Source of the DNA: a bacterium
GTDB taxonomy: Bacteria > Myxococcota_A > Bradymonadia > UBA7976 > UBA1532
DNA length: 64,000 nucleotides
NCBI GenBank assembly: GCA_030426085.1
Contig: JAUHYW010000001.1
Span: forward strand, 186,001 to 250,000
Reading direction: 5' to 3'
The translations under genes and the position numbers were made by a program. Positions 25,192-52,749 of the stretch are shown here, in pieces (within the stretch, counting starts at the first letter, position 1; each line of letters opens with the position of its first letter). The notes under the pieces are model-generated. The model was not told the DNA's origin, made no database searches, and saw nothing but the letters and a program-made list of their open reading frames with translations.

Positions 25192-28464
<3,273 letters not shown>

Positions 28465-31171: not shown

Positions 31172-34100
31172 ATGCCACGACGCCGACGCCACTTCCTCGT
31201 CACCGGGCTCACGCTGTGGGCCCTCGTCGGCTGCGATCCGTCGTCGACGGCGCCCCTCGACGCGCGCCCGGTGGACGGTGATCCACCGGCCGACGCCGGG
31301 GGCGAGGCCGACAGCGGGCTCGACGGGGCGCTCGACATGGCCCCGTCCGATCTCGACGCAGCGCCCGACCCGCTCGACGGGGCCCTGCCCGATATCGCCG
31401 GGCCGGATGGGACCTCGCCCGACCGGGGCCTGCCCGACGGGGCCGCCGGGGACACGGCCCTGACCGACGCGGCCGCGCCGGATATGGCATCGCCTGACGT
31501 GGCGGCGCCCGACATGGCCCTGCCCGACCCCGACGCCGCCGTCGACATGCGGATCGACGCCGGACCGCCCCCGCTCGACCCGCCGCAGATCACCGAGGTC
31601 GCCGCCCGCGACGGCGCCGGCGTGGTCGACGAAGACGACGAGCCGTCCGACTGGCTCGAGCTGTACAACCCCAACCCGGTCCCCTACCTGCTCGCCGACC
31701 ACCACCTCACCGACGACCGCGACGACCCCTTCGGCTGGGCCCTGCCCCCGGTCGACATCCCGCCCCGCGGGTACCGGGTCGTCTTCGCCTCGGGCAAGGA
31801 CCGCGCCCCGCTCGACGGCCCGCTGCACACCGACTTCCGGCTGTCGGCCGAGGGCGAATACCTCGCGCTGACCGACCCCGACGGGGCCGTGCTCGACGCG
31901 TGGGACGGCTGGCCGCCGCAGATCGAGGCCGCGACGTGGGGCCGGCCGATGACCGTCGAGCGCCGCCCGCTCGACGCCCCGGCTCGGGCGGTCCCCCTGG
32001 CCGACGCCGCCCCCGGCTGGACCGGCCCGGTCTTCGCCGACGGCCCGTGGCCCCTGGTCGCGCTGCCGCTCGGCGTCGACCGCGCCGACCCCGACGCGCC
32101 GATCGCGACCCCGTTGGACGCGCCGGGCGCCGCGCTGCGCCTGCGGGTCGAGGTGCCCCCCAACCCCGGCCACCTCGAAGTGAGCCTGCGCTTCGCGGAC
32201 GGCGTCGCGGTCTGGCTGGATGGCGTGCCGGTCTTCGCGTATGGCATGCCCGCCCCGCTCGACGCGGCCGGGCTGCCGACCGACGCGCCCGCCGCCGACG
32301 CCCGGGCGACCGTCGAGCGGGCCCCGGTCGAGGCGTCGGCCCCGCTGCGGATCGCGCTGGACGCCGCCCCCGGGCCGCGGGTCATCGCGCTGGCCGGGCT
32401 GGACGGGCCGGCGGACGACGGGCGCTTCATGCTGGGGGTCGAGGCCGCCGACGTGCGGCGCACGATCGAGCCGGAGCGGCGCTACCTCACCCCGACGCCG
32501 GGCGCCGACAACAGCCCGCCGGTCGACCTCGGCCCGATCGTCTCGGCGTTGACCCGCGACCCGCCGGCCGCGCCCGACACGCCGCTCGAGGTCGTCGCCC
32601 GGGTGCACCCCACCGCGGCGCCCATCGCCTCGGTGCGGCTGACATGGCGGGTGGCCTTCGAGCCGCCCGAGGTCATCGAGCTGGCGCCCGATCCCGATGA
32701 TCCCAGCCTGTACCGCGCCACGCTGCCGGCCGCGGTCATGCTGCCGGGGCAGATGATCCGCTGGTTCGTCGAGGCCGCCGACACCGACGGCCGGACCACC
32801 CGCGAGCCGCCGTTCGCCGATCCCACCGACAGCGAGGAGTACCGGGGCACGGTGGTGGCCGATCCCACGATCGCCAGCGATCTGCCGGTGCTGCACTGGT
32901 TCATGGAGCGCCCCGAGCTGGCCGATCGGGCCAGCGGCGGGCGGGCGAGCATCTGGTTCGACGGCGAGCTGTACGACAACGTGCGCTTCGATCTGCACGG
33001 GCAGTCGACCCGCGGCTTCCCCAAGAAGAGCTACGACGTCGACCTCAACCGGGACCACCGCTTCCGCCTGAGCGACGATCTGGGGCGCATGAAGGACTTC
33101 AACCTGCTGACCACCTACGCCGACAAGTCGCGGGTGCGCAATACGCTGGCCTACGGCGCGTTGGCGTCCATCGGCGCCGATCACCACCTGGCCTTCCCCA
33201 TGCGCGTGCAGCGCAACCGGAGCTTCTTCGCGGTGGCCGACTTCGTCGAGGACGGCGACGACCGCTGGATCGAGCGGCTGGGCTACGACCCGGTCGGGCC
33301 GCTGTACAAGGTCTACGACGGGGCCTACGACCCCGGCCGGGCCGAGAAGAAGACCCGCCGCGAAGAAGACAACGCCGACTACGCCGCGCTCATCGCCGGG
33401 CTCGGGCTGCCGCCGGCCGAGCGGCGGGCCTTCCTTTACGACAACGTCGACCTCGCCCGCATGGCGAACTACCTCGCCGGCAACGCGCTGCACGCCACCG
33501 TCGACTGCTGCCACAAGAACTACTATCTGTACCGCGACGCCGCCCGGCTCGAGTGGTGGATGATGACCTGGGACGTCGACCTGAGCTTCGGCCGGGTGTG
33601 GACCGGCAACTACTTCGACGACCGGATGTACCCCGAGAACGGGCTCTTCCTCGGTCGGGACACCGGCAGCCGCAACCAGCTCCTGCTCGCGCTCTATGAC
33701 GACCCGGCCTTCGTCGAGATGTACCTCCGGCGGACCCGCTCGGTGCTCGACGCGATGCTCCAGCCGCCCGGCACCCCGCCCGAGGCGCTCATCCTCGAGG
33801 CCCGGGTGGACGCCCTCACCGCGCAGATCGGCGACGACGCCCGGCTCGACGCCGAGCGCTGGCCCACCTGGGGCGAGCCGCAGACGATGCTGGAGGCCGC
33901 CCGCCGGCTGAAGGACGACTTCCTCGCGCCCCGCCGGGCGTGGGTCTACGGCGCGCTGGTGCAGCACGAGCCGGGGGTGATCCTGATCCCGCCCGAGCCC
34001 GGCGCGGCGCTGGGGCGCTACCGGGTGCCGCTGGTCGACGACCCCGAGCAGGCGTGGACCGCCCCCGACTTCGACGACGCCGACTGGATCGAGGCGCCCC

Positions 34101-34885
34101 TGGGCCTGGGCTATGAGAACGCGCCCGCGGACTACGACGGCTTCATCGCCACCGTCGTGCGCCCCACCGATCTGGACCCCGCCGCGACCGGGATCCAGCT
34201 CCGGGTGCCCTTCGTCGTCGACGACCCGGCCGCGGTCGACACGCTCACCCTGTCGCTGCGCTACGACGACGGCGTCGTGGCGTGGCTCAACGGGGTCGAG
34301 GTGGCCCGGCGCAACGTCGAGGGGCTGCCGGCGTGGGACGCGGGCGCGGTCAACCACCCCGACAATCAGGCGGTGTCATTCGAAGGCATCGACATCAGCG
34401 CCGCCCTCCCCGCCCTACGCCCGGGGCTCAACGTGCTGGCGATCCACGTCGTCAACACCAACCCCGGCAGCAGCGATCTGTTGATCCAGCCGGCCCTGGT
34501 CGACGGCGCCCTGGGCGAAGGCGTCCTGCCCCCGGCCCAGGCCCCGGATGCCATCGTGCATGCCATCGACATGCAGGCGCCCGACGACCCGGCCGAGGCG
34601 TGGATCGCCGTCGAGAACCCGGAGCCGGTCGCGGTCGATGTCAGCGACTGGCTGGTGCGCGGCGCGGGCATCGAGCACCGCTTCACCCCGGGCACGGTCA
34701 TCCCGGCGGGGGGCACGCTCTACGTGGTGGCCGACAGCGTGCGTTTCCGGGCCCGGGCCGAGAGCCCGACCGGCGGCGAGGGTCTGTTCGTGCAGGGCGA
34801 CTGGCGCGGCCAGTTGGTCCCGGCGTTCGGTCTGCCCGATGTCATCCGCCCGGACGGCGCGGTGATCGCGCCGGGCGGGCTGTGA
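31172..34885 (+). CDS. CotH-kinase/lamin-tail-domain lipoprotein
   Basis: A 1237-residue lipoprotein: lipobox LVGC, then an Asp/Ala/Gly/Pro linker to about residue 130. A lamin-tail domain follows (EPSDWLELYNPNP, about 130-260), then a jelly-roll-like region (LEVSLRFADGVAVWLDGV). The CotH domain (about 565-870) has HGQSTRGFPKKSYDVDLN, HKNYYLYRD and MTWDVDLSFGRVW. A second jelly-roll copy (LTLSLRYDDGVVAWLNGV) and a second lamin-tail-like end follow. CotH proteins of spore formers are protein kinases; here the fold is extracytoplasmic and its substrate unknown. GGGAGGTC precedes the ATG. Confidence 0.9.
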   Translation: MPRRRRHFLVTGLTLWALVGCDPSSTAPLDARPVDGDPPADAGGEADSGLDGALDMAPSDLDAAPDPLDGALPDIAGPDGTSPDRGLPDGAAGDTALTDAAAPDMASPDVAAPDMALPDPDAAVDMRIDAGPPPLDPPQITEVAARDGAGVVDEDDEPSDWLELYNPNPVPYLLADHHLTDDRDDPFGWALPPVDIPPRGYRVVFASGKDRAPLDGPLHTDFRLSAEGEYLALTDPDGAVLDAWDGWPPQIEAATWGRPMTVERRPLDAPARAVPLADAAPGWTGPVFADGPWPLVALPLGVDRADPDAPIATPLDAPGAALRLRVEVPPNPGHLEVSLRFADGVAVWLDGVPVFAYGMPAPLDAAGLPTDAPAADARATVERAPVEASAPLRIALDAAPGPRVIALAGLDGPADDGRFMLGVEAADVRRTIEPERRYLTPTPGADNSPPVDLGPIVSALTRDPPAAPDTPLEVVARVHPTAAPIASVRLTWRVAFEPPEVIELAPDPDDPSLYRATLPAAVMLPGQMIRWFVEAADTDGRTTREPPFADPTDSEEYRGTVVADPTIASDLPVLHWFMERPELADRASGGRASIWFDGELYDNVRFDLHGQSTRGFPKKSYDVDLNRDHRFRLSDDLGRMKDFNLLTTYADKSRVRNTLAYGALASIGADHHLAFPMRVQRNRSFFAVADFVEDGDDRWIERLGYDPVGPLYKVYDGAYDPGRAEKKTRREEDNADYAALIAGLGLPPAERRAFLYDNVDLARMANYLAGNALHATVDCCHKNYYLYRDAARLEWWMMTWDVDLSFGRVWTGNYFDDRMYPENGLFLGRDTGSRNQLLLALYDDPAFVEMYLRRTRSVLDAMLQPPGTPPEALILEARVDALTAQIGDDARLDAERWPTWGEPQTMLEAARRLKDDFLAPRRAWVYGALVQHEPGVILIPPEPGAALGRYRVPLVDDPEQAWTAPDFDDADWIEAPLGLGYENAPADYDGFIATVVRPTDLDPAATGIQLRVPFVVDDPAAVDTLTLSLRYDDGVVAWLNGVEVARRNVEGLPAWDAGAVNHPDNQAVSFEGIDISAALPALRPGLNVLAIHVVNTNPGSSDLLIQPALVDGALGEGVLPPAQAPDAIVHAIDMQAPDDPAEAWIAVENPEPVAVDVSDWLVRGAGIEHRFTPGTVIPAGGTLYVVADSVRFRARAESPTGGEGLFVQGDWRGQLVPAFGLPDVIRPDGAVIAPGGL

Positions 34886-38136: not shown

Positions 38137-38165
38137 TTGACGGTCCCCCGAGCGAGTCCTACGAT
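38137..38165 (+). promoter_or_regulatory. Candidate promoter of the TPR-binding lipoprotein-kinase unit
   Basis: TTGACG (38137-38142), 17-nt spacer, TACGAT (38160-38165): five and four matches to sigma-70 consensus. It implies a leader of about 60 nt before ATG 38233. Confidence 0.5.
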
Positions 38166-38232
38166 GCGTACGACTCGACGCGCGCCCCGACGTCACCCGC
38201 GGGGCGACAGGCGTCGAGAGGGAGGAAAGCGC

Positions 38233-38997
38233 ATGACGCGCAGGTGGGCGAAGTCGACGGCGCTGGCGATCCTGATCGCCGCTCCGGTGCAGGCCCAGCC
38301 GGCCGACGACGCCGTCTCGCAGGTCGAAGCTCTCGCCGGAGAAGCCCGGGCGCTCTACGACGCCGGCGAGTTCGGGCAGGCCGTCGCGAAGTATCTCGAG
38401 GCCTACAAGCTCCAGCCCACCGCGGCGGTGCTCTACAACGTGGCGGTCATCTACGACAAGAAGCTCAAGGAGGTCGATCTCGCCATCGACTTCTACCGGC
38501 GCTACATCGGCTCGCCCGACGCCGATCCCCAGGCGGTGCAGCGGGCGACGGCGCGCTTGCAGGCCCTCAAGGCCGAGAAGGAGGCCCGGCGTCAGGCCGA
38601 GCTGTCGACCCTGACGCCCACCGGCGGGGGGCAGGCCGAGGGGCAGCGCACGCCACCCCCGGCGCACATGTCGACCCAGGCGGTCACCGGGTGGGTGATG
38701 GCGAGCGCCGGGGCGGCGCTCCTGATCGGAGGCGGCGTCGTGGGCTACCTCGCCGGCGACTCGCAGGAGAAGTTCGCCGACTCGACCCGCGAGGTCGACG
38801 ACCGCATCGAGGCCCGCGACGTCGGCGAGGACCGGGCGCTGATCGCCGACGTGCTGCTCGGCGCCGGCGCCGCGGCGACGATCACCGGGCTGCTGCTGGT
38901 GGTGCTCGACGACGGGCCGGCCGAGGCCGAGGGCACCGCGATCCACGTCGGCCCGCGGGGCGACGGCTTCGGCGTCTCGGTGGGAGGGGTCTGGTGA
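38233..38997 (+). CDS. Signal-peptide TPR protein with C-terminal membrane segments
   Basis: A 254-residue protein. The signal peptide (LAILIAAPVQAQ) is followed by a TPR-like region (about 30-125; ARALYDAGEFGQAVAKYLEAY and a second repeat LAIDFYRRYIG), a Gln/Arg-rich helix, and two membrane segments (about 155-178 and 208-230). It ends IHVGPRGDGFGVSVGGVW. It is a paralogue of the protein at 20153-20857. GGGAGGAAAG precedes the ATG. The stop overlaps the next start by one base (TGATG), so expression with the binding lipoprotein is coupled. Probable role: periplasm-facing scaffold in the same complex. Confidence 0.85.
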   Translation: MTRRWAKSTALAILIAAPVQAQPADDAVSQVEALAGEARALYDAGEFGQAVAKYLEAYKLQPTAAVLYNVAVIYDKKLKEVDLAIDFYRRYIGSPDADPQAVQRATARLQALKAEKEARRQAELSTLTPTGGGQAEGQRTPPPAHMSTQAVTGWVMASAGAALLIGGGVVGYLAGDSQEKFADSTREVDDRIEARDVGEDRALIADVLLGAGAAATITGLLLVVLDDGPAEAEGTAIHVGPRGDGFGVSVGGVW

Positions 38998-40532
38998 TGC
39001 GCCCGCACCCGAAGATGGCATCCCCCGCCCTGCTGTCGCTGACGCTGCTGCTCGGCGGCTGCTCGTTCACCCTCGACTTCGAAGACCAGTGCTCGACCGA
39101 CGGCGACTGCCCGGGCATCCAGACCTGCGCCCAGGGGCTGTGCACCGGGCCGCTCACCCTCGACGGGGGGGTCGACGCCGATCCCGGCGAGGCCGACCTC
39201 GGCCCGCTCGTCAAGCCCGAGGCCTGCCGCAACACCTACTCGGTGCCCGAGTCGACGCTGCTCGACGACGAGTCGATGGTCATCCGCCTCGGCATGCTGA
39301 TGCCGACCACCGGCGACCTGGGGCCGGTGGGGCTGGCCATCGAGCAGGCCGCCGCGCTCGCCGCCGACGAGATCAACGCCAGCGGCGGGGTCGACGGCGT
39401 GCCGATCGGCATCGTGGCGTGCGACACCCAGACCAACCCCGATCAGGCCGAGGCGCTCGCCGAGTGGCTCGTCGAGCGGGCCCGGGTGCCGGCGATCATC
39501 GGCCCGGCGACCAGTTCGGGCACGCTCCAGGTCTTCAACCGGGTCGCCAAGCCCAACGGCACGCTGCTCATCAGCCCGTCGGCGACGAGCCCCGAGATCA
39601 GCAACCTCGACGACGACGACCTGATGTGGCGCACCGTGCCCTCCGACGCCATCCAGGGGCGGGCGATCCTGGAGTACCTCAAGGATCGCAGCTACCAGAA
39701 GATCGCGATGATCTACCTCGACGACGCCTACGGGCGGGGGCTGCTCGACGCGGTCCTGACCCCGCTGTGCGACGAGCCCATCGGCTGCGGGCCGGACGCC
39801 TTCCTCGCCCAGCCGTACTCCGCCGACGAGAACGGCAACGTCGAGGTGGACACCGTCAACGGGCTGATGAACGACCTGCGCATGTTCGAGCCCGAGGTGC
39901 TCGTCTTCGTCGGCTTCGTCGAGGCCGGCATCCGCATCCTCAACTCGGCGGCCAACTCGAGCTTCACCGACATCCCGATCGTGCTCAGCGACGGCATGCG
40001 CAACGCCGACATCGCCGCCCGGATCCTCGACGACGACCTCAAGCGCAACATCATCGGCACCGCGCCCGCCTCGCCGGCCGGCTCGGTGTATCAGGGCTTC
40101 CGCACCCGCTACGAGGGGCAGTACGACGCCGAGCCGGCGGTCTACAACGCCCAGGCCTACGACGCGATGTACCTGCTCGCCTTCGCCATCTCGGCCGCGG
40201 TGCAGGACGGGCCGCTGACCGGGCAGGCGATCGCAGCCAACCTGGCCCGGGTCTCCGAGGGCGAGCCGGTGCGGGCCGCGCCCGGCGACTGGAACACCGG
40301 CGTCTCGGCTCTGCGGGCGTCGCCGGACGCGACGTTCGACTTCCAGGGGTCGTCGGGCTCCCTCGACTTCGACAACAGCCGGGGCGAGGCGCCCTCCGAT
40401 ATCGAGGGCTGGTATTTGGACGTCGACGCAGGCACGGTTGAGTCGCTCGGGGTCGTCTTCACCAGCGGCGGCGACTTCGACGGCATGCTCTTCCGCACGC
40501 CCTACGAAGGCGAGGGCGAGCCGCCGATGTAG
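38997..40532 (+). CDS. LIV-type periplasmic-binding lipoprotein
   Basis: A 511-residue lipoprotein: lipobox LLGGC (Cys22), a short Cys motif (CSTDGDCPGIQTCAQGLC) typical of myxococcal lipoproteins, and a linker. A Peripla_BP_6 (Leu/Ile/Val or amide receptor) domain spans about 100-480. Marker segments are IRLGMLMPTTGDLGPVG, ALAADEINASGGVDG, PAIIGPATSSGTLQVFN and IAMIYLDDAYGRGL. Such proteins bind amino acids or amides, but no ABC permease or ATPase gene is present. The next gene is a Ser/Thr kinase, suggesting a sensing rather than uptake role. Start ATG 38997 is coupled to the TPR gene. Confidence 0.9.
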   Translation: MRPHPKMASPALLSLTLLLGGCSFTLDFEDQCSTDGDCPGIQTCAQGLCTGPLTLDGGVDADPGEADLGPLVKPEACRNTYSVPESTLLDDESMVIRLGMLMPTTGDLGPVGLAIEQAAALAADEINASGGVDGVPIGIVACDTQTNPDQAEALAEWLVERARVPAIIGPATSSGTLQVFNRVAKPNGTLLISPSATSPEISNLDDDDLMWRTVPSDAIQGRAILEYLKDRSYQKIAMIYLDDAYGRGLLDAVLTPLCDEPIGCGPDAFLAQPYSADENGNVEVDTVNGLMNDLRMFEPEVLVFVGFVEAGIRILNSAANSSFTDIPIVLSDGMRNADIAARILDDDLKRNIIGTAPASPAGSVYQGFRTRYEGQYDAEPAVYNAQAYDAMYLLAFAISAAVQDGPLTGQAIAANLARVSEGEPVRAAPGDWNTGVSALRASPDATFDFQGSSGSLDFDNSRGEAPSDIEGWYLDVDAGTVESLGVVFTSGGDFDGMLFRTPYEGEGEPPM

Positions 40533-40568
40533 CGCGGCGCCGACCGCCGAGAGGTCAGGCAAAAGACG

Positions 40569-42344
40569 ATGGGCACCCTCTGCCCCCACTGCCGTTCCCG
40601 CTTCGACGACGACGCCCTCGAGCGCTGTCCGCACGACAACAAGCGCCTCGTGCCCGATCGCAGCGGGCAGACCATCGCCGACCGCTACACCTTGCGCGAG
40701 CTGCTCGGGGTCGGCGGCATGGACAGCTCGGTGTGGCTGGCGTGGCAGACGTCGACCCAGCGTTCGGTGGCGGTCAAGATCCTGCCTCCGGTCGAGGGCG
40801 ACGCCGCCGAGCGCTTCGCCCGCGGGGGGCGCATCGCGTCGAACCTCAACCACCCCAACATCACCACGGTGCACGACTACGGCCGCGCGGCGGACGGCGA
40901 GCTGTACCTGGTGATGGAGCTGCTCGAAGGGGTGACGCTGTACAAGGCGCTGCGCAAGACGCCCTTCCCGCTCGAGCGCACGGTGCACGTCATCGATCAG
41001 GTGCTGCGGGCCCTGGGCCACGCCCACCGGCGCAGCGTGGTGCACCGCGACATCAAGCTGAGCAACCTGTTCCTGACCCCCCGGGACGACGACCCCGACT
41101 TCGTCAAGGTGCTCGACTTCGGCATCGCCCGCTTCGTCGAGGAGCCGCCCGAGGGCTGGGCTGAGACGGTCAACAACGAGATCACGACCACCCGCCAGCT
41201 CTGCGGCACCCCGCAGTACATGGCCCCCGAGCAGATCGGCTTCGGCAAGATCGACGCCCGGGCCGACCTCTACGCGACCGGGGTGGCGACCTACCGCATG
41301 ATCACCGGGCGGTTCCCGTTCCAGGGCACGGCCCACGACCAGTTCCGGGCCCACCTGCAGAGCCGGCCCCCGCCGTTCTCCCAGATCCGGCCCGATCTGA
41401 ACGTGCCGCCCGAGGTCGAGGCGTGGGTGATGCGGGCGCTCGAGAAGGACCCCGACAACCGCTTCGCCAGCGCCGAGGAGATGCGGACCGCGCTGCGCTC
41501 GATCCGCAAGCGGCTGGGCATCGCCGCCGGTGAGCTGGAGGACAGCTCGGTGCGCTCGGCGCCCCACAGCCGCAGCTCGTCGATCATGTGGGCCGGCGAG
41601 GCGCAGGACCGCACGACCGAGCACGTCGTGCCCCAGCCGCCGCGCCGCAGCCGGGCCTGGATCTGGGCCGCGCTGATCACGCTGCTGGTGGTCGTCGGCG
41701 TGGGCCTGCTGCTGACCCGCGAACCGCCCAAGCCGCGCATCACCGCCCTGGGCAGCGATGAGACCTCGCAGACCGAGCGCCCGCCGAAGCCCGGGCCGCC
41801 GGTCGCCGCGCCGAAGCCGGCCGACGCCGGGCCCCCGGTCGACGCCGCCCCGGTCGAGCGGGCGGTCCTGATCAAGAGCCGCCCCGACGGGGCGACGGTC
41901 GAGCGGGACGGCGAGCGGCTGGGGCGCACCCCGCTCGAGCTGAAGCTGACCCCCGGGCAGTACGTGTTCCGGCTGTCGCGGCGGGGGCACACCGACGCCG
42001 CGATCCGGGTCGACGTGGGCGCCGACGGCGACGAGGTCATCGAGGCGCTGGGCTTGCTCGATCGGCTCGGCCGCGGCCCGTCCCGACCCGAGCGGCCCGA
42101 ACCGCCCGCGCCCGATCCCGAGCCGGCGCCCGACCCCGAACCGGCGGTCGCGCCCGCGCCCCCGCCCGAGCCGCCGCCGGTCATCGCCGCCCCCAAGCCG
42201 GCGAAAGAGGCCGAGAAGAAAGACACCGTGCGCATGCAGCTCCTCGATGAAGACGAGGCGCGCACCTTCGATGTTGGCGGCGGGGCCGAGAAGCCGGCCC
42301 CGACTCCGGGCGGATCCAAGCCGTCGGTGGACCTCATCGACTGA
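40569..42344 (+). CDS. Membrane Ser/Thr protein kinase with N-terminal zinc ribbon and C-terminal PEGA domain
   Basis: A 591-residue protein. A CPHC-x10-CPHD zinc-ribbon-like start (residues 5-22) precedes a kinase domain (about 39-315) with VAVK, HRD (159-161) and DFG (183-185). Two oddities are a Gly loop GVGGMDSSV with one extra residue and Asp for the third Gly, and HRDIKLSN with Leu-Ser for the usual Pro-x. A membrane segment (about 363-384) leads to a Pro-rich periplasmic part, a PEGA domain (IKSRPDGATVERDGERLGRTP) and a charged tail. A periplasmic PEGA could contact the binding lipoprotein encoded 36 nt upstream. A hairpin ends the unit. Confidence 0.92.
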   Translation: MGTLCPHCRSRFDDDALERCPHDNKRLVPDRSGQTIADRYTLRELLGVGGMDSSVWLAWQTSTQRSVAVKILPPVEGDAAERFARGGRIASNLNHPNITTVHDYGRAADGELYLVMELLEGVTLYKALRKTPFPLERTVHVIDQVLRALGHAHRRSVVHRDIKLSNLFLTPRDDDPDFVKVLDFGIARFVEEPPEGWAETVNNEITTTRQLCGTPQYMAPEQIGFGKIDARADLYATGVATYRMITGRFPFQGTAHDQFRAHLQSRPPPFSQIRPDLNVPPEVEAWVMRALEKDPDNRFASAEEMRTALRSIRKRLGIAAGELEDSSVRSAPHSRSSSIMWAGEAQDRTTEHVVPQPPRRSRAWIWAALITLLVVVGVGLLLTREPPKPRITALGSDETSQTERPPKPGPPVAAPKPADAGPPVDAAPVERAVLIKSRPDGATVERDGERLGRTPLELKLTPGQYVFRLSRRGHTDAAIRVDVGADGDEVIEALGLLDRLGRGPSRPERPEPPAPDPEPAPDPEPAVAPAPPPEPPPVIAAPKPAKEAEKKDTVRMQLLDEDEARTFDVGGGAEKPAPTPGGSKPSVDLID

Positions 42345-42361
42345 CCGTCGCCGGGCGACGG
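42345..42361 (+). terminator. Hairpin directly after the PEGA kinase gene
   Basis: CCGTCGC (42345-42351) and GCGACGG (42355-42361) around a 3-nt loop, starting at the first base after TGA. It closes the three-gene unit. No U-tract. Confidence 0.45.
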
Positions 42362-42398: not shown

Positions 42399-44504
42399 AT
42401 GGAGATCCGCGAACTCGCCGAGCGGGTGCTGTTCGGGCGCACCCTCGCCGACAAGCTGCTGCGCCCCGACAGCCCGTTGACCGATCACCGGCCGGGCCCC
42501 GCCATCACCCGGCCCGACGCGCCCGGCCGCCCGCCGGGGCTCGGCCCCGCCCGCCGGGCGCGGATCCCCTTCCCCGCGCGCTCCGAGCTGCACCGGGACG
42601 AGATCCGGGGCCGGGTGCTGCACCGCTTCGCCAACCACGAGCTGATGGCCATCGAGCTGATGGCGCTGGCGCTGCTGCGCTTCCCCGAGGCGCCGGCAGC
42701 CTTTCGGCGGGGGGTCGCCGGGGCGCTGTTCGAAGAGCAGACCCACTTCGAGCTGTACCGCGACCGCATGCAGGCGCTGGGCTGCGCGCTGGGCGAGGTG
42801 CCGGCGAGCCCGCTGTTCTGGGACATCCTGGCGCCGATGGCCGAGCCGATGGACTACGTGACCGGCATGAGCCTCACCTTCGAGCAGGCCAACCTCGACT
42901 TCGCCCGCCACTACCGCGAGGTGTTCGCCGAGGTCGGCGACGCCGAGACCGCGGCGGTGCTGCACCGGGTCTACGAGGACGAGATCGGGCACGTGAAGCT
43001 GGGCCTCGTGTGGTTCCGCCGGTGGCGCACGTCGCCCGCGCCGCCCGAGGCCACGCCCGAACCCCCACCGAGCGACTGGGACGCGTGGTGCGCGGCGCTG
43101 CCCGATCGTTTGCAGCCGAGCCGGGCGAAGGGCATCGGCTTCGACGTCGAGGGCCGCCGCCGGGCCGGCTTCGACGAGGGCTACATCCGCCGGCTGCGGG
43201 TCTTCCAACAGTCCAAGGGCCGGGTGCCGACGCTGCATCGCTTCAACCCCACCGCCGAGATCGAGCTGACCGGGCGCACGCCGCCCGCGGTGGCCCGCCG
43301 GCTCGCCCGCGATCTGGAGACGCTGCCGATGTTCGTCTGCGCCCGGGACGACGCGGTCCAGGTCACCCGGGCCCCGCGCCCCGGCGCCCTCGAGCCGCTG
43401 GCCCGGGCCGGCTTCGTGCTGCCCGACTTCGTGACCCCGGGCGAGCTGGGCGGGCGGCGCTTCGCGACGGTGCGCCCATGGGCCGCGATCGCCGGCGCCC
43501 TGGAGGCCGGCGAGGCGCAGGTCGATCGGCCGGCGACGCCCACCCCGCCCGCGCTCTTCGGCAAAGCCTGGGCCGCCGCGCAGCTCGGGGCGCTGGCCGA
43601 TGAGCTGCCCTGCCCGGTCGACCCGGCGCTCGTCGGCGTGCCCTGCCCCGATCGCGCCGCGGTCGAGGCGCAGATCGCCCGGCTGCGGGCGGCGGGTTTT
43701 GGCCCGATCGCGGTGAAGGCCGCGCTGAGCACCGCCGGCGCCGGGATCCGGCGGATCGCAGCCGATGACATATCTCATACCGGATATGGCACACCCGAAG
43801 CGGATGACATATTGCCTCGCAGATGGCTGACCCGCGCGCTGGGCGGGGGGCCGGTGATCGTCGAGCCGTGGCTCGATCGGGTGCTCGATCTGGGCATCCA
43901 GCTCACCGTGCGCAGCGACGGCGTCCAGGTCGATGGCGTCGGGCGCAACCTCGTCGATACCCGGGGCCACCACCGGGGCGTCGCGCTGGTCCCGCTGGCC
44001 ACCGGGCTGCCCATACCGCTGCGCATCTTCCTCATGAGCCGGCCGGTCCAGGAGACATTGCAGCAGGTCGGCGCCCGGATCGGTGCGGCGTTGGCCGAGG
44101 CCGGCCACCGGGGCCCGGCGGCGATCGACGCCCTGATCTACCGCGACGGCGATGGCTTCGGCCTCAAGCCGATCGTCGAGGTCAACCCCCGCTGCTCGAT
44201 GGGCCGGATCGCCCTGGCGCTGAAGCGGCGAGTCGCTCGGGGCAGCAGCGCGGTGTGGCTGCAACAGCCGGCGGATCGCGCCCCCCGGGACGCCGACTTC
44301 GAGACCCGCGGTGATCCGCCGGTCATCGTCGAGGGCGTCCTGCCGACCACCGATCCCGTCGACGCCCGGTTCGCCACGACGCTCTTCGTCGCTCCCCGCT
44401 TCGAGATCCTGCGCGCGCGGCTGCGGCAGGCGGTCGGCTCACTGCCGGTGGCCGATCCGGCGTTCGCGATTCACATGCCCCAGAGTTCCATCACCGCCCG
44501 CTGA
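42399..44504 (+). CDS. DUF455 (ferritin-like) and ATP-grasp fusion protein
   Basis: A 701-residue cytoplasmic protein. The N-terminal third is DUF455, a MiaE/ferritin-like four-helix fold with candidate di-iron ligands Glu81, Glu86, Glu113-x2-His116 and Glu195-x2-His198 (NHELMAIEL; EEQTH; EDEIGH). From about residue 250 the protein changes to an ATP-grasp-like ligase: VIVEPWLDRVLDLGIQL and the C-terminal metal/ATP segment LKPIVEVNPRCSMGRIAL. ATP-grasp enzymes join a carboxylate to an amine; with a di-iron oxygenase-like domain, a tailoring or peptide-ligation role is conceivable but unproven. An AT-rich, rare-codon insertion occurs at 43764-43812. The 3' end overlaps the convergent TPR gene by 34 bp. 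Confidence 0.82.
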   Translation: MEIRELAERVLFGRTLADKLLRPDSPLTDHRPGPAITRPDAPGRPPGLGPARRARIPFPARSELHRDEIRGRVLHRFANHELMAIELMALALLRFPEAPAAFRRGVAGALFEEQTHFELYRDRMQALGCALGEVPASPLFWDILAPMAEPMDYVTGMSLTFEQANLDFARHYREVFAEVGDAETAAVLHRVYEDEIGHVKLGLVWFRRWRTSPAPPEATPEPPPSDWDAWCAALPDRLQPSRAKGIGFDVEGRRRAGFDEGYIRRLRVFQQSKGRVPTLHRFNPTAEIELTGRTPPAVARRLARDLETLPMFVCARDDAVQVTRAPRPGALEPLARAGFVLPDFVTPGELGGRRFATVRPWAAIAGALEAGEAQVDRPATPTPPALFGKAWAAAQLGALADELPCPVDPALVGVPCPDRAAVEAQIARLRAAGFGPIAVKAALSTAGAGIRRIAADDISHTGYGTPEADDILPRRWLTRALGGGPVIVEPWLDRVLDLGIQLTVRSDGVQVDGVGRNLVDTRGHHRGVALVPLATGLPIPLRIFLMSRPVQETLQQVGARIGAALAEAGHRGPAAIDALIYRDGDGFGLKPIVEVNPRCSMGRIALALKRRVARGSSAVWLQQPADRAPRDADFETRGDPPVIVEGVLPTTDPVDARFATTLFVAPRFEILRARLRQAVGSLPVADPAFAIHMPQSSITAR
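43764..43812 (+). repeat. AT-rich in-frame insertion flanked by 10-bp direct repeats
   Basis: GATGACATAT at 43764-43773 and 43803-43812. The copies start 39 bp (13 codons) apart. Codons such as ATA, TCT, TAT, ACA and TTG, rare elsewhere in this genome, cluster here. CATAT (43769-43773) and ATATG (43784-43788) form an internal inverted repeat. Removing one repeat unit would join IAADD directly to ILPRRW. Confidence 0.6.
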
Positions 44505-49095: not shown

Positions 49096-52000
49096 ATGCG
49101 CGACTCGCCGCCCGCCCCCGAGCGCCCGATCTTCGAGGCCGGGCCGTTCGATGTCCTGCGCCCCGTCGCGCGGGGCGGCATGGCCGAGGTCTGGCTCGGG
49201 CGGCACCGGGTGCACCACACCGAGGCGGCGATCAAGATCGTGCGGTCGGCCGACGACGGCGCCGGGCTCGACCGGCGGCTGCGGGTCGAGGTCCGGGCGA
49301 TGGCCGGGCTCGACCACCCCCGGGTCGCGACGGTGCTCGACACCGGCACGCTCGACGCCTGCGCCGAGGCCGACTCCGGCGGGCGGGTATCGGCCGGCAG
49401 CCCGTGGCTGGCGATGACCTGGGTGCCTCACGGTGATCTGGGCCGGGTCGAGGGCCCCCAGCCGTGGGCGGTGACCCGGGCGCTGCTGCTCGACATCCTC
49501 GAAGCCCTGGCCCACGCCCACGCCCGAGGGGTCATCCACCGCGACCTCAAGCCGGGCAACGTGCTGCTGCGGGTCGAGGGCGAGGCCGGGGTGCGGGCGG
49601 TGCTGACCGACTTCGGCATCGCCCAGGTGCTCGACCCCCACGGCGACGAGCCGACCCTCGATCAGCGCATCTCGGGCACCCCGGAGTACATGGCCCCCGA
49701 GCAGATCCGGGGCGAGTGGCGCGACGTCGGCCCGTGGACCGATCTGTACGCGCTCGGCTGCCTCGGCTGGCGCCTGGCGACCGGGGAGCCGCCCTTCATC
49801 GGCCGGCACCCGGTGCGCATCTCGATGAAGCACCTCGGCGAGCCGGCGCCCCCGCTGGCGCTGCCCCCGGACCACCCCCCGGCCTTCGAGCGCTGGCTGC
49901 GGCGGCTGCTGGCCAAGGACCCCCACGCCCGCTACGAGCGCGCCGCCGACGCCGCCTCGGCCCTCGCTGGCGACACACCCGAGGATCCGGCAGGCACCGG
50001 CCCCCTGTTCCGCGCGCTGACGCACGGGCCGCTCGCCGCGGCCCCGCCGTCGCTGGTCGAGGGCCCGACCCGGGCCCCGGGCGCCGACCGCGCCAGCCAC
50101 CTGGCGCTGGTCTTCGGCGCCACCGCGGACGACGCCGTGGCCTGCGCCGCCACCCGGGCGCTGTCCGCGTCCGACACGGCGAGCGACGACCCGCCGATCG
50201 CGCCGCCGCCCGACGCGGGGGCCGACGCGCCGGGCCCCGCCCGGTCGAGCACCGGACCGATCCAGCCGCTGCCCGACGACTGGCGCTCGGCCCTGATGAG
50301 CCAGCGGGGCGTCGTCGGGCGGGCCGGGCCGGGGCTCTTCGGCCTGCGTCCCCTGCCCATGGTCGGGCGCATCGCCGCCCGGGACGGCCTGTGGGACGCG
50401 CTGCGGCAGGCGTGGCGGGACGGCACACCCCGGATGTGCGTGGTGCAATCCGCCGCCGGGTTCGGCCGCCGGCGGCTCGCCGACTGGCTGACCCGCCGGG
50501 CCGACGAGCTGGGCGCGGCCTATGTGATCCACGCGACCCACGGCCCGATCCCCGCCCGCCGGGACGGCCTCGGCGCGGCGCTGCTCGAGTGGTATCGGGC
50601 GCTCGACGCCGACGCGCGGCTGCTCGACGAGCGCATCGACGCCGAGCTGGCCCGGCGGGCCCCGGAGGTCGACCCGATCGTGCGGCGCGACACCCGGGAC
50701 GCCCTGGCCGCCCTCGCCCGCCGGGGCCTGCTCGTCGAGCGCCCCGGGCAGCACGACCCGCAGGCGCGGGGCTTCGTGCGCTGGCTGCGCTGGCTGGCCC
50801 GCCGCCGCCCGATCATCCTGCGGCTGGACAACGCGCACTGGAGCACCGCCTCACTCTCGATCGCCGCCCGCCTCGCCCGGGAGACCGGGCTGCCCCTGCT
50901 GATCCTGCTCACGCTGCCCATCGCCACCGAGCGGGCCCACGTCGGCGCCGAGCGGCTGGCCGCGCTCGAGCGGCTCGAGGCGCAGGGGGGCCACGCCGAC
51001 ATCCGGCTCGCGCCGCTGGACGCCGCCGAGATGCTGACGCTGCTCGTCGACGGCGTCGGGCTGGCCCCGGGCACCGCCCGTCCGCTGGTCGAGGCCGCTG
51101 GCGGCAACCCGCTCTTCGCGGTGCAGGTGGTCGCCGAGTGGCTGGCCGACGGGGCGCTGCGTCCCGGAAGCCGGGGTATGGTGCCCGTCGGCCGGGTGAA
51201 GCTGCCGATCCCCGCCGACCAGGACGCCCTGGGGCGGGCCCGCATCGAGCGGGTCCTGCACACGAGCGGGGTCGACCCCGATATCGGCTGGCGGGCCCTC
51301 GAGGCGGCGGCCATGCTCGGCGAGGCGGTCGCCGCCGACGACTGGGCCTCGGTCACCGGCGCCGACGGCGAGGCGCTGTCCGACCTGACGCTGGCCCTGC
51401 TCGACAGCGGCCTCGCCCGCCCGGCCGACGACGGCTGGAGCTTCGCCCACCGCTTCATCCGCGAGGCCCTCGTCGGCCGGGCCCGCGCCGGCGGCCGGGC
51501 CCGGCGGCTGGCGCTCTTCTGCGCCCTGGCGGCCATCGACACCGAGCCCGACGACGCCCGGGCCGCCGAGCGCCGGGCGCGCTACCTGCACGACGGGGGG
51601 CACCGGCTCGAGGCCGTCGAAGCCTACGCCGAGGCCGCCCGCCGCACGCTGGCCCGGGGCGCCTACCGGGCCGCGGCGACCCTGCTCGACACCGCCGACG
51701 CCGTCTTCGCCGCCGCCGGCCTCCTGCCGACCGACGTGCGCCGGGCGCGGCTGCTGGCGATGCGGGCCGAGGCCGCCCGCTTCACCGGCCAGCCCGATCT
51801 GGCCGAGGCCGCCCTGGCCAGCCTGCGCCGCATGCCCCACCCGCCCGGGCGCCCCTGGGCCCGGGCCGAGCTGAGCCGCCTCGACGGGCAGCAAGCGTTC
51901 TACGCCGGCCGCACCGACGCCGCCCTCGCCGCGTGGCGGGCCGCGGTCGACCTCTTCGAGCAGGCCGGCGACCCGGAGGGCGTCGCCCGCAGCCTGCACG

Positions 52001-52749
52001 GCCAGGGCTGGGCGCTGTGCAGCATCGGCGAGACCCTCGCGGCTCACGCGCTGTTCGAACGGGGCCTGGGGCTGGCCACCGCCGCCGACCTCCGGCTCCA
52101 GGCGGCCTGGTGCGCCCACGGCATGGCCGTCACCCGCATCTGGAGCGGGCGCCCCGGGGGCCGGCCCCTCGCCGAAGACGCCGCCGCCCGCTTCGCCGAG
52201 CTGGGCCAGCCCGCCGGTCGGGGGCTGTGCCTGGTGCACCTGGCCGACGCGCTGTGGGCCGACGGCGAGGCCATCGCCGCCCGGGCCGCCCTCGACCGCG
52301 CGGTGGGCCTGCTGCGAGCCGCCGAGGCCGCCACCCTGCCCGACGCGCTCACCCGGCGGGCCATCCTCGCGCTCGAAGAGGGGCGCCTCGACGCCGCCCG
52401 GGCCGACAGCACCGAGGTCGAAGGCCGCTGGCTCGACGTGCAGCTCGCCGGCCGCCGCTGCGAGCCGCTGATCGTGCTGGCCTGCCTGGAGCTGGCCGCC
52501 GATCGGCCGCCCACCGCCGCCCGGCTCTTCGACCGCGCCGCGGCCCACGCCGACACCGCCCTCTTCGCCAGCCCAGCCCTCGGCCGCATCCTGGAGCGCG
52601 CCGCCGAGGGTCTGACCCCTCACGACCGCCCCCGCGCGCGGCGCGCGTTCGAACTCGCCCGCCGCGTCTGGCGCCCACTCGACCCCCGACGGGGGGCCCT
52701 GCTCGGGCGCCGGATCCGCGAGATGCAGCGCGCCGACGCGAGGGGATGA
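49096..52749 (+). CDS. Ser/Thr protein kinase with degenerate ATPase and TPR domains (giant 2)
   Basis: A 1217-residue protein, paralogue of 25192-28464. The kinase domain has ARGGMAEV, AIKIV, HRDLKPGN (148-155) and DFGIA (172-176). It keeps the link motif LPDDWR and the GRAGPGLFG segment. The following ATPase-like domain has lost the P-loop: SAAGFGRR (452-459) stands where GPSGSGKT is in the paralogue, so Lys and Thr are both Arg. Walker B is also changed (LRLDNAHW for VVDDLQW). The C-terminal half is TPR-like. It may be a pseudo-ATPase scaffold that signals with or against its paralogue. Its stop is 3 nt from the convergent haem-protein gene. Confidence 0.9.
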   Translation: MRDSPPAPERPIFEAGPFDVLRPVARGGMAEVWLGRHRVHHTEAAIKIVRSADDGAGLDRRLRVEVRAMAGLDHPRVATVLDTGTLDACAEADSGGRVSAGSPWLAMTWVPHGDLGRVEGPQPWAVTRALLLDILEALAHAHARGVIHRDLKPGNVLLRVEGEAGVRAVLTDFGIAQVLDPHGDEPTLDQRISGTPEYMAPEQIRGEWRDVGPWTDLYALGCLGWRLATGEPPFIGRHPVRISMKHLGEPAPPLALPPDHPPAFERWLRRLLAKDPHARYERAADAASALAGDTPEDPAGTGPLFRALTHGPLAAAPPSLVEGPTRAPGADRASHLALVFGATADDAVACAATRALSASDTASDDPPIAPPPDAGADAPGPARSSTGPIQPLPDDWRSALMSQRGVVGRAGPGLFGLRPLPMVGRIAARDGLWDALRQAWRDGTPRMCVVQSAAGFGRRRLADWLTRRADELGAAYVIHATHGPIPARRDGLGAALLEWYRALDADARLLDERIDAELARRAPEVDPIVRRDTRDALAALARRGLLVERPGQHDPQARGFVRWLRWLARRRPIILRLDNAHWSTASLSIAARLARETGLPLLILLTLPIATERAHVGAERLAALERLEAQGGHADIRLAPLDAAEMLTLLVDGVGLAPGTARPLVEAAGGNPLFAVQVVAEWLADGALRPGSRGMVPVGRVKLPIPADQDALGRARIERVLHTSGVDPDIGWRALEAAAMLGEAVAADDWASVTGADGEALSDLTLALLDSGLARPADDGWSFAHRFIREALVGRARAGGRARRLALFCALAAIDTEPDDARAAERRARYLHDGGHRLEAVEAYAEAARRTLARGAYRAAATLLDTADAVFAAAGLLPTDVRRARLLAMRAEAARFTGQPDLAEAALASLRRMPHPPGRPWARAELSRLDGQQAFYAGRTDAALAAWRAAVDLFEQAGDPEGVARSLHGQGWALCSIGETLAAHALFERGLGLATAADLRLQAAWCAHGMAVTRIWSGRPGGRPLAEDAAARFAELGQPAGRGLCLVHLADALWADGEAIAARAALDRAVGLLRAAEAATLPDALTRRAILALEEGRLDAARADSTEVEGRWLDVQLAGRRCEPLIVLACLELAADRPPTAARLFDRAAAHADTALFASPALGRILERAAEGLTPHDRPRARRAFELARRVWRPLDPRRGALLGRRIREMQRADARG

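Follow-up and report, generated by a model that had tools for sequence, protein, structure and literature searches.

The stimuli of bacterial Ser/Thr kinases remain an outstanding question (PMC6069109). The closest described case is the GlnH-GlnX-PknG system of Actinobacteria, in which an operon encodes an orphan aspartate-binding substrate-binding protein (SBP), a transmembrane (TM) protein and a kinase, and in which amino acids stimulate the kinase (PMC6069109, PMC9769921, PMC8546545). The locus described here belongs to a genome of 10.1 Mb, the named relatives of which are all Myxococcota, and is found within the 64,000-nucleotide stretch of DNA that was analysed as a whole (G000:C160:186001-250000, referred to as the window). 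It has the same general plan, namely a conserved operon for an orphan SBP lipoprotein, a TM protein and a Ser/Thr kinase, with TPR involved. The parts differ, however. PknG is a soluble kinase with its own C-terminal TPR and, in mycobacteria, a rubredoxin domain, whereas the window kinase has one TM segment and a PEGA domain and matched no TPR or rubredoxin model in Pfam; TPR is instead found on a separate protein with two TM stretches (TPR/2-TM protein). GlnX has periplasmic four-helix bundles (4HB_MCP_1), whereas the membrane protein of the window matched TPR models only and was modeled as a TPR module with a TM hairpin, and GlnH is E. coli GlnH-like, whereas the SBP of the trio is of the Peripla_BP_6 class. 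Because of the PEGA transmembrane kinase, the unrelated membrane protein and the other SBP class, the trio is not a member of that system but an analog that probably works like it and is built from unrelated parts. No report of a receptor-kinase trio in Myxococcota was found in the open-licence literature.

Other described systems share individual features with the locus. The SBPs of LIV/HAAT transporters (LivJ 4gnr, LivK 3td9, Atu2422 3ip5) have their fold and pocket residues in common with the binding lipoprotein of the window (BP), but BP carries a Cys-rich module, has no permease or ATPase partner, and is linked or fused to kinases. Venus-flytrap sensor kinases such as BvgS (PMC4352136) have a flytrap outside and a signalling domain inside, a layout also found in two fusion proteins discussed below (L162 and L198), but the output here is a Hanks-type Ser/Thr kinase rather than a histidine kinase, and the flytrap of the window is a separate lipoprotein. 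PASTA-type kinases (PknB; NF033483) share a Hanks-type domain, one TM segment and an extracytoplasmic part with the window kinase, which has PEGA in place of PASTA and its sensing part on another protein; it reached 254 of 450 bits against NF033483, well under the NCBIfam cut-off. None of the three trio proteins reached the cut-off of any NCBIfam family.

The three genes lie on the + strand and encode the TPR/2-TM protein (38233-38997, 254 aa), BP (38997-40532, 511 aa) and the kinase (40569-42344, 591 aa). The ORF coordinates agreed with the preliminary description, according to which the first two genes overlap in a shared TGATG and the kinase gene begins 36 nt after the BP gene. The sigma-70-like promoter that it had placed before them, TTGACG-N17-TACGAT (38137-38165, + strand), also held up: it was the sole sigma-70-like match in 5.3 kb, where 0.1 was expected from shuffled sequences, and both boxes, GGTTAGTTGACG and CGAGTCCTACGATGCG, were retained in the same-genus relative L084 within DNA that had diverged around them, which is good evidence that the promoter is functional. 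The hairpin that was said to end the unit was confirmed as a structure, located directly 3' of the kinase stop (42345-42361, + strand) with a 7-bp stem free of mismatches and a 3-nt loop, but it is an unproven terminator and may not stop transcription, because it has no T-run, was not called by terminator prediction and was not kept in L084. As judged from the sequence, the TPR/2-TM, BP and kinase genes form one transcription unit. A gene for a DUF455 protein of 701 aa (42399-44504) begins 55 nt past the kinase gene, but it is probably not part of the unit, since it is not immediately downstream of the trio in the same-genus relative. Elsewhere, the window encodes a secreted-type protein of 1237 aa with CotH kinase and lamin-tail domains (31172-34885) and, flanking the trio at a distance of less than 15 kb, one further large Ser/Thr kinase on each side (25192-28464 and 49096-52749), whose kinase domains were far weaker matches than those of the trio orthologues.

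Searches with BP against 116 related genomes found homologues in 58 of them. The complete TPR-BP-kinase order was present in seven genomes of the window's family (G001, G003, G004, G005, G006, G008 and G010), so that the lack of conserved gene order in related genomes, which the preliminary description had named as grounds for refutation, was not seen, while G011 (BP-kinase) and G012 (TPR-BP) are cut by contig ends, so the trio recurs in this family wherever a contig spans the locus. The flanking genes changed in all but the nearest relative, which indicates that the trio holds together against reshuffling, and in most relatives its neighbouring ORFs either overlap or leave almost no gap. The trio kinases matched the window kinase at 1e-113 or better, compared with 1e-19 to 1e-40 for other kinases in the same stretches.

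BP was assigned to the amino-acid/amide receptor class from the start, and this assignment was borne out: its Pfam matches were limited to Peripla_BP_6 (2.4e-37, residues 96-420), ANF_receptor and Peripla_BP_5, and its structure model (pLDDT 90) was nearest in fold to LivJ 4gnr and LivK 3td9. A lipobox read directly as LLGGC-SF supports its description as a lipoprotein, and 68 of 70 Myxococcota homologues have the lipobox Cys. The lipobox Cys22 and a Cys-rich mini-module with C32, C38, C44 and C49 are encoded at 39060-39143 on the + strand. Together with C77 and C142, these four module positions are Cys in 69-70 of the 70 aligned orphan homologues. Among 13 ABC-type or outside sequences, in an alignment that is uncertain towards the N-terminus, Cys never occurred at C32, C49 or C142, occurred once at C38 and twice at C44, and was found at the C77 position in eight. 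The orphan BP class thus appears to be marked by six near-invariant cysteines. Another Peripla_BP_6-type lipoprotein with a Cys module, GCSLTLDFDC..., is encoded in the host genome (G000:C20:194454-195284; L040 7591-9375, - strand), and no kinase was detected in the stretch examined around its gene. Tandem orphan BP genes occur at L056, L058-L060, L068, L112, L134 and L152, in some Bradymonadales-like and Polyangiaceae genomes, and the loci tested had no permease close by; these pairs possibly encode heteromeric receptors.

The putative ligand pocket of BP is conserved. S173, T197 and D332 have S, T and D of LivJ 4gnr as their aligned counterparts and are retained in 65-68 of the 70 homologues. 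The matching positions of LivJ and LivK hold the alpha-amino and alpha-carboxyl groups of the ligand, so the best guess for BP is an amino-acid-like ligand, most likely an alpha-amino acid or a close analogue. A loop at residues 104-112 is variable, and therefore ligands may differ between family members. It was considered that the domain might have lost small-molecule binding and might now serve the kinase as an adaptor that binds proteins or the wall, a reading to which the variable loop, the additional Cys module, the extension past the standard domain and the FGE-sulfatase-type domain on one of the fusions would lend themselves; the retention of S173, T197 and D332 makes it very improbable.

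Uptake is the usual function of Peripla_BP_6 proteins, and the pocket signature of BP resembles that of transport-type binding proteins, so that BP might be a transport component feeding the LivHM of the host or a distant permease, with the nearby kinase merely co-regulated. The search for an ABC partner argued against this. The host genome has a single LivH/LivM pair, on contig C44, whose operon also encodes a separate SBP for it and both ATPases, and no match to BPD_transp_2 was found in five trio-bearing relatives that are 75-89% complete (G004, G005, G008, G011 and G012). LivH/LivM neighbours were found at none of 67 BP loci of Myxococcota or Myxococcota-like genomes but at 9 of 12 loci outside this set, which shows that the neighbour test was able to see permeases. 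An ABC partner for BP was thus rejected, and BP is considered an orphan, as had been claimed from the absence of permease and ATPase genes beside it; no dedicated permease that always pairs with it was found in the host, the five incomplete relatives or the 67 loci. Together with the fusion of such domains to kinases, these results leave very little room for a transport function.

The kinase matched Pkinase (5.2e-43) and PEGA (2.7e-10) in Pfam, in agreement with its earlier description as a transmembrane kinase with a PEGA domain. It consists of a CxxC-type N-terminus, a kinase domain (40-303), one TM segment by hydropathy (365-383), an extracytoplasmic PEGA domain (433-486) and a proline-rich tail. 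Its catalytic set is intact (GxGGM, K70, HRD 159-161, N166, DFG 183-185 and APE 219-221), and the catalytic residues are invariant among the trio kinases. At least 150 kinase domains were counted in the 10.1-Mb host genome, about 1.5 per 100 kb. The C-terminus of the trio kinases is a conserved acidic stretch of a few residues (VDLID, IELLE or VDLLDD; 42327-42341 in the window), which is duplicated in L096 and L131, and the convergently oriented kinases of Polyangiaceae end in P(I/L)D..(D/N)P(W/Y); both tails are possible docking motifs. By analogy with HOP and CHIP, (I/V)(D/E)L(L/I)(D/E) was considered as a peptide ligand of TPR, which is attractive for the trio kinases, but the control was not clean: other host kinases beside TPR paralogues have unrelated tails, and one has an LLDE tail with no TPR match in the stretch examined. 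Because of these control tails, the idea remains weak.

The TPR/2-TM protein matched TPR models alone, the best being TPR_16 at 1.1e-7, just below the cut-off, and hydropathy indicated TM stretches at 155-173 and 207-225. Its structure model has a signal-peptide-like start, a confident TPR module (24-126), a long two-helix hairpin (148-183 and 188-225) that carries both TM stretches, and a small beta hairpin at the C-terminus. In the host genome, 6 of 14 loci of this TPR family have a listed kinase domain no more than 2.5 kb away (binomial p of about 0.001 against a chance rate of 9.6%), which suggests that proteins of this type may be general companions of kinases. By analogy, the TPR/2-TM protein could hold the coupling part that GlnX has in Actinobacteria; its placement as a go-between of BP and the kinase is a weaker proposal than that of a kinase-linked receptor.

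The linkage of BP and kinase extends beyond the window's family. When about 85,000 species genomes were scanned, 79 BP loci were obtained in order of their similarity to BP of the window, a ranking by which its clade is over-represented; 67 of them, including one labelled Comamonas that groups with Myxococcus in the BP tree, were treated as Myxococcota or metagenome-assembled genomes of Myxococcota affinity, and 12 as outside. At the 67 loci, kinase density in the first 1 kb downstream of BP was 28.8 per 100 kb, compared with 0-1.4 per 100 kb beyond 2.5 kb downstream. Without the window's clade, and counting both sides, it was 8.8 (0-1 kb), 4.9 (1-3.5 kb) and 0.75 (more than 3.5 kb) per 100 kb. 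TPR-family matches numbered 43 within 1 kb of BP and none at 1-3.5 kb. The arrangements included TPR-BP-kinase, BP-kinase, kinase-TPR-BP and, in Polyangiaceae, BP convergent with kinase-TPR, while Myxococcaceae have TPR-BP with no adjacent kinase. A maximum-likelihood tree of the BP domain required at least 13 arrangement changes, compared with a mean of 34.8 after shuffling, and kinase linkage was found in several separated clades. The TPR-BP pairs of Myxococcaceae/Archangiaceae (L115 6227-10395, L108 6255-10392 and L123 6227-10407) directly follow a gene of the same orientation whose start resembles, by eye, a GTP-type PEP carboxykinase. Gene order alone is not proof of contact, and the arrangement is fluid outside the family, so that the genes might simply be co-transcribed in one physiological programme, such as starvation or development, with no signalling complex. 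Since the genes abut or overlap, the linkage recurs in several clades in differing orders, and fusions exist, this explanation is quite improbable.

Two genomes encode the kinase and the binding domain in one protein. In the metagenome-assembled genome SP4258 (L162), a single ORF of 927 aa has a kinase domain (17-237), a TM segment (408-426), a Cys module and Peripla_BP_6 (532-841). In G019 (L198, 4815-7949, - strand), a single frame of 1045 aa has a kinase domain, a TM segment (332-350), a Cys module and Peripla_BP_6, and additionally a C-terminal FGE-sulfatase-type domain. The two fusions may descend from one event, because their kinases resemble each other. No kinase-BP fusion spanning 80% of the query was found in plasmid records. 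Some Streptomyces proteins carry the RefSeq name 'bifunctional serine/threonine-protein kinase/ABC transporter substrate-binding protein', so kinase-SBP fusions in themselves may not be new. As read from their domain order, the two fusions show that Ser/Thr kinases use this binding domain for an ectodomain, and they lend independent support to a sensing model.

Taken together, the single unit, its conservation, the orphan status of BP, the intact catalytic and pocket residues and the fusions in two genomes make it rather probable that the trio is a ligand-responsive Ser/Thr kinase unit in which BP acts as the sensory ectodomain of the kinase. BP would close around an extracytoplasmic small molecule, most plausibly an amino acid as above, and liganded BP would alter the state of the single-pass kinase via the PEGA/tail ectodomain of the kinase, while the TPR/2-TM protein, with its TPR in the periplasm and its hairpin in the membrane, would probably hold BP and kinase together or relay the signal. 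Of the preliminary proposal that small-molecule binding outside the cytoplasm controls the kinase, the linkage, the orphan receptor and the fusions now form the supported part, while we infer the ligand class, complex formation, the direction of the signal and the role of the TPR/2-TM protein. Direct contact with a kinase ectodomain cannot be general, because some kinases beside BP are tail-anchored or have no ectodomain, and in another family the adjacent kinase has a kinase-AAA_16-TPR architecture and lacks a convincing TM segment; such cases would call for a relay in the membrane that is separate from the kinase, unless BP and kinase are linked in a different way there. The kinases that have no ectodomain, together with the Myxococcaceae TPR-BP pair, which without an adjacent kinase seems able to act alone, would also fit the reverse direction, in which the kinase regulates an output of TPR/BP, such as an envelope or nutrient-handling module, and BP reports nothing. 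This is unlikely, since the binding domain of the fusions sits at the ectodomain position of the kinase, which is a receptor layout, and since the kinase domain is cytoplasmic and BP lies outside, so that BP is no direct substrate.

In conclusion, the sensing model provides a probable small-molecule receptor that is genetically tied to one kinase and has natural fusions, so that ligand, receptor and output are directly testable, and, if true, it would be a second and apparently independent case of an SBP controlling a Ser/Thr kinase. The kinase linkage of BP recurs phylum-wide, and there is somewhat less than an even chance that Cys-module LIV-type flytrap lipoproteins are used across the Myxococcota as interchangeable ligand-binding ectodomains of Ser/Thr kinases, whether they are fused to the kinase or are proteins of their own that TPR/2-TM proteins couple to it. 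If such a phylum-wide receptor family exists, part of the large myxobacterial kinome would gain identifiable extracellular ligands.
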